A stretch of 22,526 nt of DNA from a virus: positions 1 through 22,526 of the IMG/VR virus record IMGVR_UViG_3300027721_000081. One strand, given 5' to 3'. The notes beneath the pieces were generated by a model. The model was given only the letters and a program-made list of their open reading frames with translations, had not been told where the DNA came from and searched no databases. Positions 3,151 to 19,429 of this stretch are shown here, one piece after another (the first letter of the stretch is position 1; the number at the start of each line of letters is the position of its first letter). Made by a program: the position numbers and the translations under genes.

Positions 3151-4083
3151 ATGAACCGTAATTTAAAATTCAATTTAGATATTGAAACAAACGCATTATT
3201 AGCTGCGAACCCAGAGGAGTTTTATTCAAAGGCTTATTTATCAAGCCCTGATATTCCTAACAACTTCCGTACTTTACCAGGTGTGAAGTCAAAAACAAAA
3301 TTGGCCAATGTAGTATTTGGACAGGTGTTGCAACCTTACAACTGTGCTTTCTCACCAAGTACTGACTTGTTAGATGCTATTGATATCGATGTATGTTCTT
3401 TGTCTGCAATGGCTGAGCTTTGTCAGTTCGATTTAGAGCAATCATTCTTAGCTTTGCAAATGACAAAAGGATCTAATGGTGACTTCACTGTTGCATCTTT
3501 CATGGCATACTACTGGAATGAGATGGCTTTGACTATTGGTCAAGACTTAGAGGTGTTGAGATGGCAAGGTAATGATGCATCTGAGGATCCATTGTTATCT
3601 TTGTGTACTGGATACTTATTCAAGATGTTCTATGATACAGATGTTATAGGTTTATATGATGGAGCTGTAACTACTGCAAATGTATTGACAGTTATGGAGT
3701 CTGTACTTAACGCTGCACCTGCATCTATAGTAAGACGTAAAGCTGACTTAAGATTCTACGTTTCAACAAACGTAGCTAACGCATATGAGTTGAAAGCAGC
3801 ATCTGGTAACACGCAGACATTCGTTACTTTACCATTAGGATTAACTTTCTTAGGTATCAATGTAGTGACTTGTGAAGGTATGCCAGATAACACTATTGTG
3901 TTGACATTGAAAAATAACCTTATCTATGCATTTGATGCAGAGGGAGATTCAAAAGCATTGAAAGCTATCAACTTATCTGACTCAGTTGCTGAGCCTGTAT
4001 TGAGAACTCGTGCGAACATGAAGGCTGGTTTCTTCTATACGAACCCTACTGAGATAGTTTTGTATAACGCATTCTACATCTAA
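3151..4083 (+). CDS. Major capsid protein, HK97-fold candidate
   Basis: 310 residues, starting one base after the protease stop. The position right after a prohead protease with scaffold-like tail, the length, and the strong terminator after it all fit a major capsid protein. Visible segments include a charged N-terminal arm (NRNLKFNLDIETNALLAANP), then SPSTDLLDAIDIDVCSLSAM, and a C-terminal part ending NPTEIVLYNAFYI. I recall closely similar capsid proteins in Bacteroidota phages. Codon choice looks more uniform than in the neighbours (many GCA, TTA, ATC/ATT), as expected of a highly expressed gene. The HK97 fold is inferred and not directly visible. Confidence 0.8.
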   Translation: MNRNLKFNLDIETNALLAANPEEFYSKAYLSSPDIPNNFRTLPGVKSKTKLANVVFGQVLQPYNCAFSPSTDLLDAIDIDVCSLSAMAELCQFDLEQSFLALQMTKGSNGDFTVASFMAYYWNEMALTIGQDLEVLRWQGNDASEDPLLSLCTGYLFKMFYDTDVIGLYDGAVTTANVLTVMESVLNAAPASIVRRKADLRFYVSTNVANAYELKAASGNTQTFVTLPLGLTFLGINVVTCEGMPDNTIVLTLKNNLIYAFDAEGDSKALKAINLSDSVAEPVLRTRANMKAGFFYTNPTEIVLYNAFYI

Positions 4084-9822: not shown

Positions 9823-9908
9823 AAGAGCTCGCAATGATAACTTGGGCAGCTGCCATGATAATGATTCTAATCAGACTAATAAACAGATACAATGGACGAA
9901 ATAATTGA
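9819..9908 (+). CDS. 29-residue single-span membrane microprotein
   Basis: ATG 9819 overlaps the HTH gene's stop, and the TGA at 9906-9908 lies inside the next gene, which begins at 9892. The sequence has a hydrophobic helix (AMITWAAAMIMILIRLI) followed by a short basic end. The 17-base overlap with the next gene and the coupling upstream support translation; function is unknown. Confidence 0.4.
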   Translation: MKELAMITWAAAMIMILIRLINRYNGRNN

Positions 9909-10278
9909 ATACATCCAGCTCAACCAACTGGATAAGAAAGGGCGGCATAGACAACACGCTTACAGAAGGTACTACCTTTACAATCTACTCAGAAACCAGG
10001 GCATACCTTATGCAAGTATTGGTGATATGTTTAACAGAGATCATGCATCGATAATGCATGGCATCAAAGTACATAAAAACTACACCTCTATCAATGACAA
10101 CATGTATGACTTTTACACAATGGAAGAGCAACTCAAGTTCACTGGGTTCACCATTGAGCGAAGCCTGGTGCAAGACATCTTGAGCTGCACCAACACTGAT
10201 CAGTTGAAACTTATACAATTTAAGTTGAAAAATAATCAGTACAAAGTGCATCCAGATACAACAAATGAAGTATCTTAG
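9892..10278 (+). CDS. DnaA domain IV-like DNA-binding protein
   Basis: 128 residues. The core YRRYYLYNLLRNQGIPYASI followed by GDMFNRDHASIMHGIKVHKN resembles the DNA-binding domain IV of DnaA, whose signature is an 'IGxxFxxRDHSTVxHAI' segment: here IGDMFNRDHASIMHGI. No AAA+ ATPase part is present, so it is not a full initiator. The C-terminal half is unassigned. It is the last gene before the terminator and iteron cluster at 10351-10595, so a role as the origin-binding or iteron-binding protein, or as a regulator of the primase promoter, is plausible. The domain resemblance is clear; the origin role is inference. Confidence 0.7.
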   Translation: MDEIIEYIQLNQLDKKGRHRQHAYRRYYLYNLLRNQGIPYASIGDMFNRDHASIMHGIKVHKNYTSINDNMYDFYTMEEQLKFTGFTIERSLVQDILSCTNTDQLKLIQFKLKNNQYKVHPDTTNEVS

Positions 10279-10310
10279 CTCTGCTTTTACCTGATTGATT
10301 ATCCGAAAAG

Positions 10311-10341
10311 ACCCCCTCCTTGACTGGCTGGGGGTTTTTTT
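10311..10341 (+). terminator. Intrinsic terminator ending the early small-gene run
   Basis: A CCCCC run at 10312-10316 pairs with GGGGG at 10330-10334 (ACCCCC/GGGGGT), followed by seven T residues. It lies 33 bases after the DnaA-like gene and only 10 bases before the first iteron, shielding the origin from upstream transcription. Confidence 0.9.
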
Positions 10342-10350
10342 GTGTATTTT

Positions 10351-10595
10351 TGCAAGGGTAGAATATTTTGTAACTAATTGATAATCAAATGTTGCAAGGG
10401 TAGCAAGGGTAAACAGACATTCTTTTGAAACTTCAAATACAAATAATAAAATATTTTATTTCTAAAATTAAATATAATGTATCTCATATATAATTAAATT
10501 TTTTACCCTTGTATCCCTTGCAACCCAGTGTGGCATTGACTTTCTACCCTTGCTGTACCCTTGCAAAAATCATTTTTACCCTTGCACCCCTTGCA
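10351..10595 (+). repeat. GCAAGGGT iteron cluster around an AT-rich core; candidate replication origin
   Basis: Nine copies of a 10-base unit, TGCAAGGGTA or a one- to three-base variant. Three are in direct orientation: 10351-10360, 10393-10402, 10402-10411. Six are in inverted orientation: 10504-10513, 10513-10522, 10545-10554, 10556-10565, 10577-10586, 10586-10595. Neighbouring copies are 9 or 11 bases apart, about one helical turn. Between the two groups lie about 92 bases of very AT-rich DNA (10412-10503) with a perfect 16-base palindrome, AATAAAATATTTTATT, at 10445-10460. Iterons plus an AT-rich unwinding region beside a DnaA-like gene and a primase-helicase gene are what an origin looks like. 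An operator cluster is the main alternative. Confidence 0.7.
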
Positions 10596-10620
10596 GATAT
10601 GTTTTTTATTGTTATCTTTG
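10591..10620 (+). promoter_or_regulatory. Host-type promoter of the primase operon
   Basis: TTG at 10591-10593 and TATCTTTG at 10613-10620 are separated by exactly 19 bases, a full match to the Bacteroidota TTG-N19-TAnnTTTG promoter. The -33 TTG is part of the last iteron (10586-10595). The primase ATG lies 94 bases downstream of the -7 box, leaving an untranslated leader of about 85-90 bases. Confidence 0.85.
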
Positions 10621-10714
10621 CAGAGGGGTTGTTGGTTAGCTGCCACATAAAAGGTTTACACTTGTCCTTTCCCCTCTTTTTATTTTACAAGTGGACTTAA
10701 AACAAGAACAAAAT

Positions 10715-12841
10715 ATGATTAGTTATTGGATCAGTGTCAAAGACACAAACAAAGATTTTCAACGCACATCAGTTGATGAGCTTTTGGAACACATTAAAAA
10801 TGGTAAATGGAAAGACCAGGTTGAGCTGGTTAGATCTGCACCAGATGAAGATACAAAGAAAAAACAAAAACTTGTCCTTCCAAGTGTAACGGTTGGCGGT
10901 GTATTCTCTGAAAGAAATGAGAAATCACTTGAAAAACATTCTGGTTTTATCTGTATTGATGTTGACAATTACACAGACCGTTCTAAAATCAATGATGACC
11001 CGTACACATACGCATCATTCAGCTCAGTAGGTGGTAATGGATTTGCAGTAATTTGCAAGGTTGACCCATCAAAACATAAAGAGTCTTATAATTTCATTGC
11101 TGAGTACTATTTTTTAAATTACGGCATAACAGTTGACCCAGCTCCAAAGAATGTTGCCAGCTGTAGATTTGTAAGTTATGATCCTGATTTGTTTTTGAAT
11201 CCAAAATCTAAGAAAACAAAGTACAAAGTAGAAAAAAAGAGGCTGCCTAAAAACATTTCAATAATAGTACCCAAAACTGATATTGGTGACCTGGTGAATC
11301 AAGTGACAAAATCAGTTGCAGATGAGTATTCTGATTATATAGCTTTGTCTTTCTCTATAGCTGTAGGTTTTGGTATTGAAGGACGTGAATATTTCCACAA
11401 ACTTTGCAGTTTTTCTGATAAATATGATTATGATCAAGCAGATAAGCAGTACAATATTGCCTTAAAAAGGACTGGCAATGGCATTACAGTAGGAACATTC
11501 TATTATTTTCTTAAGCAAGGAGGTGCAGACCTAACAAAATACAACTCAGATAAGGCAATTTCAAGTGTGAAACTTGCTAAGAGAATGAATACTCCAAAAC
11601 TTGAAGTAGTAAAAGAGCTGGCAAAGGAGAAAAACATTGATGAGAATGAAGCTCTTGAGATAGTAAATGAAATTTTTGACCGTAATGACATGGACATTCG
11701 CCATGAAGGAGGTGCTGAAAATATGATTATCAACTGCTCAAATTTCATCTTGAAAAGGTTTAACATCAGAAAGAATCTAATCACCAGAAAATATGAGTGG
11801 AATGGTGTATCAATGTATGACAAAGAATTTAATACAGTTTTTCTTGAATGCAGAATGACATTTGATGATAAGTCTATCACATTTGATATTGTTAACCGTA
11901 TAATTCAATCAGTTGCCATACCTGAGTACAATCCATTTTTTGAATATGTTGAGGCAAACAAGCATAAAATTTCCAATGGCAACATTCAGAAATTATGTGA
12001 CTCAATAAAAAGCAACACACCATTAAAGGATAGATTTATCAGAAAGTGGATGATAGGAATTGTGGCTTGTATCTATGGCAATCCAGTACGATCTGTTTTA
12101 TCATTAACAGGTGGTCAGAATACAGGAAAAACAGAATGGTTCAGAAGGTTATTACCAAGTGCACTACAACCTTACTATGCTGAGTCCAATTTGGATAGAG
12201 GTAAGGATGATGAGTTGTTGATGTGTGAGAAACTTATTGTGATGGATGATGAGATGGGAGGAAAGTCAAAGCAAGATGAAAAGAAATTTAAGGAATTGAC
12301 ATCTAAAAATTACTTTTCCCTTCGTGCATCTTATGGCAGATATAATGAAGACTACAAAAGGCTGGCTATTTTATGCGGTACATCCAATGATCATCAGTTA
12401 ATAAATGACTCAACAGGTAACACAAGAATATTGCCTATTGAGGTTGTATCCATTGACCATGCAATATACAACTCAATTGATAAGGATGATTTGTTTATGG
12501 AATTACATCGTGCCTACACAAGTGGAGAGTCATATCAATTGGTTGAAACTGAATTGAGCATCTTGAATGAAGTAGGTAGGTCATTTGAATCCATACCATT
12601 TGAAAGAGAGTTGATATTGAAATTCTTTAATTTGCCAGACAATAGAGGTGAATGGCTAACAGCTACAGAAATCAAAGATATAATTGAATCACATTCAAAG
12701 CAGCGTATCTTATCCATGAAGAAGTTAGGCAGTGAATTAAAGCAGACTTTTGGCAATCCATTATTCAAGGATAGGTCAAACAAATACTATGTGCAAAGAA
12801 AGTCGGAGATTATGGAACAAATTAATCCCTTTGCACTATGA
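10715..12841 (+). CDS. Primase-helicase: BT4734-like primase domain plus VirE-type helicase
   Basis: 708 residues from ATG 10715; a GTG at 10691 would add eight residues. The N-terminal domain carries FICIDVDNYTDR (Asp82, Asp84) and SVGGNGFAVICKV (about 104-116), which fit the metal-binding and conserved Gly motifs of archaeo-eukaryotic-type primases, as in the BT4734-like family. A C-terminal VirE-type P-loop domain has Walker A GGQNTGKT at 466-473, Walker B-like EKLIVMDDEM and an arginine-rich stretch ending STGNTRILPIEV. Such proteins make primers and unwind DNA at the fork. It lies directly after the candidate origin and its promoter, and its stop overlaps the next gene as ATGA. From here to about 14600 the DNA is visibly more AT-rich than the structural genes. 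Confidence 0.85.
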   Translation: MISYWISVKDTNKDFQRTSVDELLEHIKNGKWKDQVELVRSAPDEDTKKKQKLVLPSVTVGGVFSERNEKSLEKHSGFICIDVDNYTDRSKINDDPYTYASFSSVGGNGFAVICKVDPSKHKESYNFIAEYYFLNYGITVDPAPKNVASCRFVSYDPDLFLNPKSKKTKYKVEKKRLPKNISIIVPKTDIGDLVNQVTKSVADEYSDYIALSFSIAVGFGIEGREYFHKLCSFSDKYDYDQADKQYNIALKRTGNGITVGTFYYFLKQGGADLTKYNSDKAISSVKLAKRMNTPKLEVVKELAKEKNIDENEALEIVNEIFDRNDMDIRHEGGAENMIINCSNFILKRFNIRKNLITRKYEWNGVSMYDKEFNTVFLECRMTFDDKSITFDIVNRIIQSVAIPEYNPFFEYVEANKHKISNGNIQKLCDSIKSNTPLKDRFIRKWMIGIVACIYGNPVRSVLSLTGGQNTGKTEWFRRLLPSALQPYYAESNLDRGKDDELLMCEKLIVMDDEMGGKSKQDEKKFKELTSKNYFSLRASYGRYNEDYKRLAILCGTSNDHQLINDSTGNTRILPIEVVSIDHAIYNSIDKDDLFMELHRAYTSGESYQLVETELSILNEVGRSFESIPFERELILKFFNLPDNRGEWLTATEIKDIIESHSKQRILSMKKLGSELKQTFGNPLFKDRSNKYYVQRKSEIMEQINPFAL

Positions 12842-15825: not shown

Positions 15826-16442
15826 AGTGGAGAGCATCACAACTCGGCAACCTAATGACCAACTCAAGGAGTAAGTCAGAGGTACTATCTGAGACTACTA
15901 AGTCAGAGATACGTAAGATAGCTAAGCAGGACTTCTATGGCTACACCACAGAGATCAAGACTAAGCCAATGATCAAGGGTACTGACTGGGAGCAGGAAGG
16001 TATTGACCTACTGAACTCAGTTAGGTTCACTCAGTACACTAAGAACGAAGAGAGAGTATCTAATGAGTACATGACTGGCTGCTGTGACATCATAACAGAT
16101 GACAGCATCATTGACATCAAGTCTTCCTGGTCATTAGAGACCTTCCCTGCTACACCATCAGAAGGTGATGCAAGTGGATACGAGTGGCAAGGTAGGGCTT
16201 ACATGTGGCTGTATAATAAACCAGCATTTGAGTTAGTCTACACCATGTACACAACACCAGATGAGCTACTGACTGAGTGGGATAACCTATCCATACATAG
16301 AGTTGACCACATTGATCCAGCCAAGCGTATCACAGTAGTGAGATATGAGAGAGACCAGGCACTTGAGGAGCAGATTAAGGAACGGTTGATCCACTGCTCA
16401 GAATACTATTCACAATATATAAATCTTTTAAACAATAAATAA
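15822..16442 (+). CDS. YqaJ-like PD-(D/E)XK exonuclease of the recombination module
   Basis: 206 residues. MKWRASQLGNLMTNSRSK is the usual N-terminal pattern of YqaJ/lambda exonuclease-like proteins in Bacteroidota phages. The catalytic core shows an early Glu (DWEQEGIDLL), GCCDIITDDSIIDIKSSW with Asp89, Asp98 and Lys100 (D-x8-D-x-K), and YEWQGRAYMWLY with Gln123, the usual trailing motif. The enzyme would resect double-strand ends to feed single strands to the ERF protein encoded just upstream (ATGA-coupled). It could also act as RecB-type nuclease for host DNA degradation. Confidence 0.8.
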   Translation: MKWRASQLGNLMTNSRSKSEVLSETTKSEIRKIAKQDFYGYTTEIKTKPMIKGTDWEQEGIDLLNSVRFTQYTKNEERVSNEYMTGCCDIITDDSIIDIKSSWSLETFPATPSEGDASGYEWQGRAYMWLYNKPAFELVYTMYTTPDELLTEWDNLSIHRVDHIDPAKRITVVRYERDQALEEQIKERLIHCSEYYSQYINLLNNK

Positions 16443-16762
16443 TGTCAGAATTAACAATGAAAGGAGCTATCAAGCTCATCAACCCAGTCAAAGTCATTAG
16501 TGACAAGTTCTCAGTGAGAGAGTTTGTTATCACTACAGCAGACAAGTACCCTCAAGAGGTAATCTTCCAGACAGTCAATGACAAGATGGATATCATAGCA
16601 CCATATGGACAGGGTCAAGAGGTCACAGTGTCATTCAATGTAAGAGGCAGAGAGTACAACGGTAAGTACTACAACACACTTGATGCATGGAAGGTGCAAG
16701 GTGAGGCAGCTGCTCCAAGTCAACAACCAATAGAGGAGACAGATGACTTTCTTCCGTTCTAA
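16442..16762 (+). CDS. Single-stranded DNA-binding protein candidate (DUF3127-like, acidic SSB-type tail)
   Basis: 106 residues, starting at a TAATG overlap. The body (MKGAIKLINPVKVISDKFSV, REFVITTADKYPQEVIFQTV and VSFNVRGREYNGKYYNTLDA) has the OB-fold-like layout of the DUF3127 family, which I recall standing in for SSB in Bacteroidota phages. It ends ETDDFLPF, very similar to the DDDIPF-type tail by which bacterial SSBs recruit partner proteins. Together with ERF and the exonuclease it makes a complete recombination set. ssDNA binding is strongly suggested by the tail and context, not by a recognised catalytic motif. Confidence 0.75.
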   Translation: MSELTMKGAIKLINPVKVISDKFSVREFVITTADKYPQEVIFQTVNDKMDIIAPYGQGQEVTVSFNVRGREYNGKYYNTLDAWKVQGEAAAPSQQPIEETDDFLPF

Positions 16763-19412: not shown

Positions 19413-19429
19413 CTCAACTATTGCACACT

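Follow-up and report, generated by a model that had tools for sequence, protein, structure and literature searches.

The region at positions 10351-10595 of the virus record IMGVR_UViG_3300027721_000081 is very likely a phage replication origin, with the VapE primase-helicase encoded downstream of it, and not the DnaA-like protein encoded upstream, as its initiator. The whole IMG/VR record, here called the window, is linear and 22,526 bases long, and is therefore a fragment. The region contains nine short repeats (iterons) in two opposed blocks, three on the left and six on the right, with an AT-rich centre between them. Related loci are given L numbers.

The repeat GCAAGGGT occurs nine times with at most one mismatch, at 10352, 10394 and 10403 on the + strand and at 10505, 10514, 10546, 10557, 10578 and 10587 on the − strand. 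Six copies are exact, while those at 10505 (ACAAGGGT), 10514 (GCAAGGGA) and 10587 (GCAAGGGG) have one mismatch each. The core conserved across the copies, TACCCTTGCA / TGCAAGGGTA, is 10 bp long instead of 8, and defines the following elements.

10351..10360, + strand: left iteron 1, TGCAAGGGTA (repeat search and core alignment)
10393..10402, + strand: left iteron 2, TGCAAGGGTA
10402..10411, + strand: left iteron 3, AGCAAGGGTA, 9 bp from left iteron 2
10411..10504, no strand: AT-rich centre, 94 bp, 87% AT, probable unwinding element (composition; comparable gap in 20 related origins)
10504..10513, − strand: right iteron 1, TACCCTTGTA on the + strand
10513..10522, − strand: right iteron 2, ATCCCTTGCA on the + strand
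10545..10554, − strand: right iteron 3, TACCCTTGCT on the + strand
10556..10565, − strand: right iteron 4, TACCCTTGCA on the + strand
10577..10586, − strand: right iteron 5, TACCCTTGCA on the + strand
10586..10595, − strand: right iteron 6, ACCCCTTGCA on the + strand

This is the cluster of three direct and six inverted copies described in the first-pass annotation, and shuffled sequences do not match it: the nine copies in the intergenic region 10279-10690 compare with a mean of 0.4 and a maximum of 3 in 2000 shuffles. In a scan of all 8-mers, one reached 7 exact copies per 250 bp, against a maximum of 4 in 200 locally shuffled windows. The spacings are 42, 9, 102 (across the centre), 9, 32, 11, 21 and 9 bp, mostly close to whole helical turns, as had been proposed, and the AT-rich centre is likewise confirmed. 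The perfect 16-bp palindrome reported within the centre is present, at 10445-10460, but an equally long one arises in about 2% of shuffles of the AT-rich stretch, and it is absent from several relatives whose iterons are the same. It is therefore probably incidental, and was rejected as a key element.

The cluster lies between a terminator and the primase promoter, and both of these elements, which the annotation had also placed there, can be recognised by inspection. The flanking features are as follows.

9892..10278, + strand: DnaA domain IV-like protein (Bac_DnaA_C; E 2.2e-7, 31.2 bits, just below the cut-off of 31.5), probably not the iteron binder, being decoupled from the iterons
about 10312..10341, + strand: intrinsic terminator of the DnaA domain IV-like gene (CCCCC ... 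GGGGG, then T7; by inspection), the left border of the exchangeable origin block; it is kept in L004-L009, which differ from the window in all that follows it
10613..10620, + strand: TATCTTTG, probable Bacteroidota-type −7 promoter element (TAnnTTTG) of the primase gene (inspection; promoter role putative); relatives keep its TTTGCA part almost unchanged
10715..12841, + strand: primase-helicase (BT4734-like N-terminal domain, PriCT_2 and VapE), the proposed origin-binding initiator (domain match; the iteron sequence tracks this gene in relatives)

The first-pass annotation favoured the DnaA domain IV-like protein as the iteron binder. This protein has a DnaA-type helix-turn-helix, its gene is directly upstream of the iterons, and small proteins like it are found in 8 of 15 related records (for example L034:3781-4209). 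Two natural exchanges separate the two candidate genes. In L022-L031 the primase is 91-99% identical to that of the window and the DnaA-like protein only 36-44% identical, and the iterons are the same in all except L028, which carries a nuclease insert. In L004-L009, by contrast, the DnaA-like protein is 95-98% identical and the terminator nearly identical, but the next large gene encodes a different primase-helicase, and GCAAGGGT is gone, with entirely different repeats in its place. The replacement proteins are of the Prim-Pol type (L004), BT4734_N with PriCT_1 (L007), Prim-Pol with DUF3987 (L008) and BT4734_N with DUF5906 (L009). A third case is L037, with a primase that is 76% identical and an iteron changed by one base, to GCAAAGGTA; its origin follows a DUF3127-like gene, and no DnaA-like gene was found either beside the origin or elsewhere in its 23-kb record. 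The repeats are thus present in relatives that share the primase, and absent from those that share only the gene on the left.

Judged from these sequence exchanges, the repeats belong to the primase-helicase. The DnaA-like protein is rejected as the binder by linkage, and we consider it an improbable initiator. Frequent as such small proteins are in the related phages, the iterons are not set by them. Nor does the origin contain DnaA boxes: the motif TTWTNCACA has two matches in the whole window, below the chance expectation, and none in 10279-10690, the sole match near the origin (at 10111) being inside the DnaA-like gene itself. The leader RNA located between origin and primase switches type independently of the iterons, and the coupling of iterons to primase is therefore not mere physical linkage. 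Across the loci, iteron similarity correlates with whole-primase identity (Mantel rank r 0.15-0.23). It may be added that in L004-L009 the whole replication module, repeats together with primase-helicase, has been swapped between phages whose sequences hardly differ as far as the terminator, and that four types of primase-helicase are involved.

The layout recurs widely. Of 20 close relatives, 17 have iteron clusters upstream of the primase, and the other three carry a nuclease insert; among 58 distant VapE loci, 38 have such clusters downstream of it. Only 0.25% of 1620 control segments contain such clusters. VapE primases of about 50% identity have the cluster directly 3' of the gene and with different repeats; those of the distant loci include CCTATTAAG (L042), AGGTTGTAAG, AGGTAGTAAG, AGGTTACA, CCCTTTACA, CCCGTTACA, TCCTACTACA and more. 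The module is also present in the cultured Flavobacterium phages vB_FspS_mymlan6-1, mumin and FPSV-S1, with the iteron clusters directly 3' of VapE. In the 20 loci examined in detail, the AT-rich gap between the blocks of opposite orientation measures 83-112 bp, or 153 in one. The layout is constant over some ten or more iteron sequences, whether it lies 5' of the gene, as in the window and its close relatives, or 3' of it. The opposed arrangement, which had been called unusual, is the rule in this family and also in the origins of phage-inducible chromosomal islands (PICIs) (PMC6092414). With the same arrangement recurring beside VapE primase-helicases that have quite different iterons, the earlier suggestion of an iteron-type origin is the best reading of the region. 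CCCTTGC triplets upstream of the primases of L074 and L078-L080 were treated as probably coincidental; they show no two-block layout, and the main cluster of L074 is 3' of the gene.

The same comparison bears on two other readings. Instead of a replication origin, the repeats might be a cluster of operators that regulates the primase promoter. Their position between terminator and promoter agrees with this, and initiators often autoregulate, so that a double role is possible. However, the two-block layout also occurs 3' of the primase in distant relatives, where it therefore cannot be a primase operator. Nor would an operator be expected to have opposed blocks separated by a conserved AT-rich gap of about 95 bp. 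We regard an exclusively regulatory role as unlikely to a considerable degree. Iteron arrays are also known from partition, incompatibility and packaging sites. A function of this kind is very improbable here: when replicons are exchanged the repeats stay with the primase-helicase, no gene next to them was recognised as a partition gene, and the terminase gene, at 19421, is about 9 kb away.

The preferred reading, an origin served by the primase-helicase, can be compared with known systems. The origins of phage lambda (O protein) and of iteron plasmids also have short repeats beside an AT-rich melting region. They differ in that there is usually a single direct array, and in that the initiator loads a helicase supplied by the host or as a separate protein. 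The closer likeness is to the origins of PICIs, including Staphylococcus aureus pathogenicity islands (SaPIs). In PICIs, the AT-rich region always has a set of iterons on either side, a layout stated to be shared by no other known bacterial replicon (PMC6092414). The window likewise has two iteron sets flanking an AT-rich region and, as in those islands, an origin that is probably specific to its own initiator. By this analogy, the origin is likely to work like a PICI/SaPI origin. Unlike those islands, the present loci belong to tailed Bacteroidota phages, and the VapE-type helicase is fused to a BT4734-like primase. Relative to the gene, the origin lies on the 5' side, next to the promoter, in the clade of the window, and on the 3' side, the PICI position, in other VapE phages. 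The window contains a terminase large subunit gene and other long open reading frames of phage type, which indicates a replicon that is not a satellite. The origin of the window is not classed as a PICI/SaPI origin, since it belongs to a phage and precedes the gene. There is also a likeness to the putative origin of the staphylococcal cassette chromosome mec (SCCmec), where a helicase (Cch2, with CCPol-MP) binds direct repeats beside its own gene; that system differs in having a D5-type helicase, a separate A-family polymerase and only three iterons, and the accessible part of the source describes no opposed blocks around an AT-rich centre (PMC7581432). VapE-type primase-helicases are widespread in phages and islands, and the literature found names no origin for them.

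The part of the primase-helicase that would recognise the iterons is proposed to be its C-terminal domain.

12587..12838, + strand: C-terminal winged-helix domain of the primase-helicase, proposed iteron reader (AlphaFold model; a similar domain is fused to origin nucleases in L028 and L038)

The AlphaFold model of these 84 residues is a winged helix with the order H-E-H-H-E-E (H, helix; E, strand) and a mean predicted local distance difference test score (pLDDT) of 80. Most of the top Foldseek entries for the model are winged-helix DNA-binding proteins. In the Rep helicases of SaPIs, the origin is likewise recognised by a C-terminal domain (PMC7581432). From the predicted fold, this analogy and the nuclease fusions described next, the C-terminal winged helix would be the iteron binder.

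In L028 and L038, a T5orf172 nuclease gene (L028:1172-1726 and L038:3226-3780) interrupts the right iteron block, and most of that block has been lost. The C-terminal domain of both nucleases is 45-49% identical to the C-terminus of the primase. A search with the single L028 protein returned only itself; a wider search with an alignment was required, and it gave about 20 related T5orf172 nucleases. Nearly all of them adjoin a primase-helicase of VapE, DUF3987 or DUF5906 type, often with iterons beside them. This origin-adjacent family includes L117-L133 (mostly starting at 3501) and L110:4678-5241, the latter from the cultured Flavobacterium phage mymlan6-1. The C-terminal domains of the nucleases match the type of the neighbouring initiator, with hhalign E values of 1.7e-15 for the VapE type and 3.5e-14 for the DUF3987 type; when types were mismatched, the probabilities were no higher than 23% and 0.6%. 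In the more distant nucleases (L135-L140), no C-terminal match to the initiator type was found. The resemblance of the nuclease C-termini to those of the adjacent initiators supports the primase C-terminal winged helix as the binder.

A nuclease of this architecture is known from the Vibrio phage ICP1: its T5orf172 nuclease Odn has a RepA-like domain and cuts the origins of satellites (PMC8263062). Related nucleases occur in E. coli phages (PMC10448857). The likeness lies in the fusion of a T5orf172 nuclease domain to an initiator-like DNA-binding domain, which is found in L028, L038, L110 and L117-L133, and not in the window. Odn has a RepA_N domain and attacks the origins of satellites, while the domains described here resemble the C-terminus of VapE or DUF3987 primases. 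Unlike that of Odn, the nuclease gene is here beside or inside the carrier phage's own origin. We put forward, as a proposal whose chances we judge to be evenly balanced, that modules of iteron origin and primase-helicase are exchanged as units in Bacteroidota phages, and that T5orf172 nucleases located at the origins have repeatedly acquired the C-terminal DNA-binding type of the resident initiator (at least two unrelated types, VapE and DUF3987), driving replicon switching and iteron change by cutting the origins of competitors or by homing.

On the basis of the layout and the linkage we hypothesise that the VapE-type primase-helicase would bind the iterons by its C-terminal winged-helix domain and assemble on both opposed blocks. 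It would then melt the AT-rich centre of about 95 bp and load as a helicase, plausibly with one ring per block to give two diverging forks, and its N-terminal primase domain would prime synthesis. Replication would thus start within 10351-10595, and origin and primase-helicase would form one portable module of initiator plus site.

Several observations weigh against parts of this hypothesis. GC skew, put forward in the annotation as a check, is uninformative in the window, and in the complete phage FPSV-S1 it shows no turn at the origin. In 13 of the 58 distant loci there is no clear adjacent cluster, and L028 and L038 persist despite the loss of most of the right block. The Foldseek search of the C-terminal model against the PDB gave no significant match (best E 0.18). 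Finally, the Mantel analysis found no iteron covariation specific to the primase C-terminal domain beyond that with whole-protein identity (partial r 0.05, p 0.2), for which reason the choice of this domain rests on fold, analogy and nuclease fusions.

The mRNA of the primase begins with a structured leader.

10621..10714, + strand: structured leader of the primase mRNA (terminator-like stem 10622-10628/10671-10677)

The apical loop at 10659-10665 (CACTTGT) is complementary to 10687-10693 (ACAAGTG), just before the start codon; the start conserved among relatives is the ATG at 10715 and not the GTG at 10691. This complementarity is kept over six different loop sequences, the true assignment of loops to tails being the best of all 720. 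Loop and tail change together, and the tail sequence is sometimes present twice before the AUG. The leader is conserved, exists in two types and is found in L003, L007-L009 and L022-L038 as well as the window; among the loci fetched, it occurs only before replication primases. It has no match in Rfam, where a search with the origin and leader region gave no credible hit even at E values up to 10. One may speculate that it attenuates primase expression, or that it acts as a small RNA on its own mRNA.

In addition to the DnaA domain IV-like protein, the primase-helicase and the terminase large subunit, the window encodes a second helicase, an ERF recombinase and a DUF3127 protein. The nearest named relatives are Bacteroidota phages (of Nonlabens, Cellulophaga and Flavobacterium), with primase identity of at most 34%, and other relatives are located within bacterial assemblies of Chitinophaga, Pedobacter, Pontibacter, Mucilaginibacter and similar genera. 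Many distant VapE primase-helicases (L041-L100) end in an acidic tail with D-x-PF, which resembles the C-terminal tip of the single-stranded DNA-binding protein SSB. The primase of the window is without this tail, and the DUF3127 protein of the window (16442-16762) ends in TDDFLPF.

These loci provide some ten or more iteron sequences, each paired with its cognate initiator, and the specificity of the initiators is therefore directly testable. The layout that was published as peculiar to PICIs also occurs in ordinary phages. The nucleases that mimic initiators suggest that co-infecting phages fight over replication origins, and not only in the cases already known from Vibrio and E. coli.
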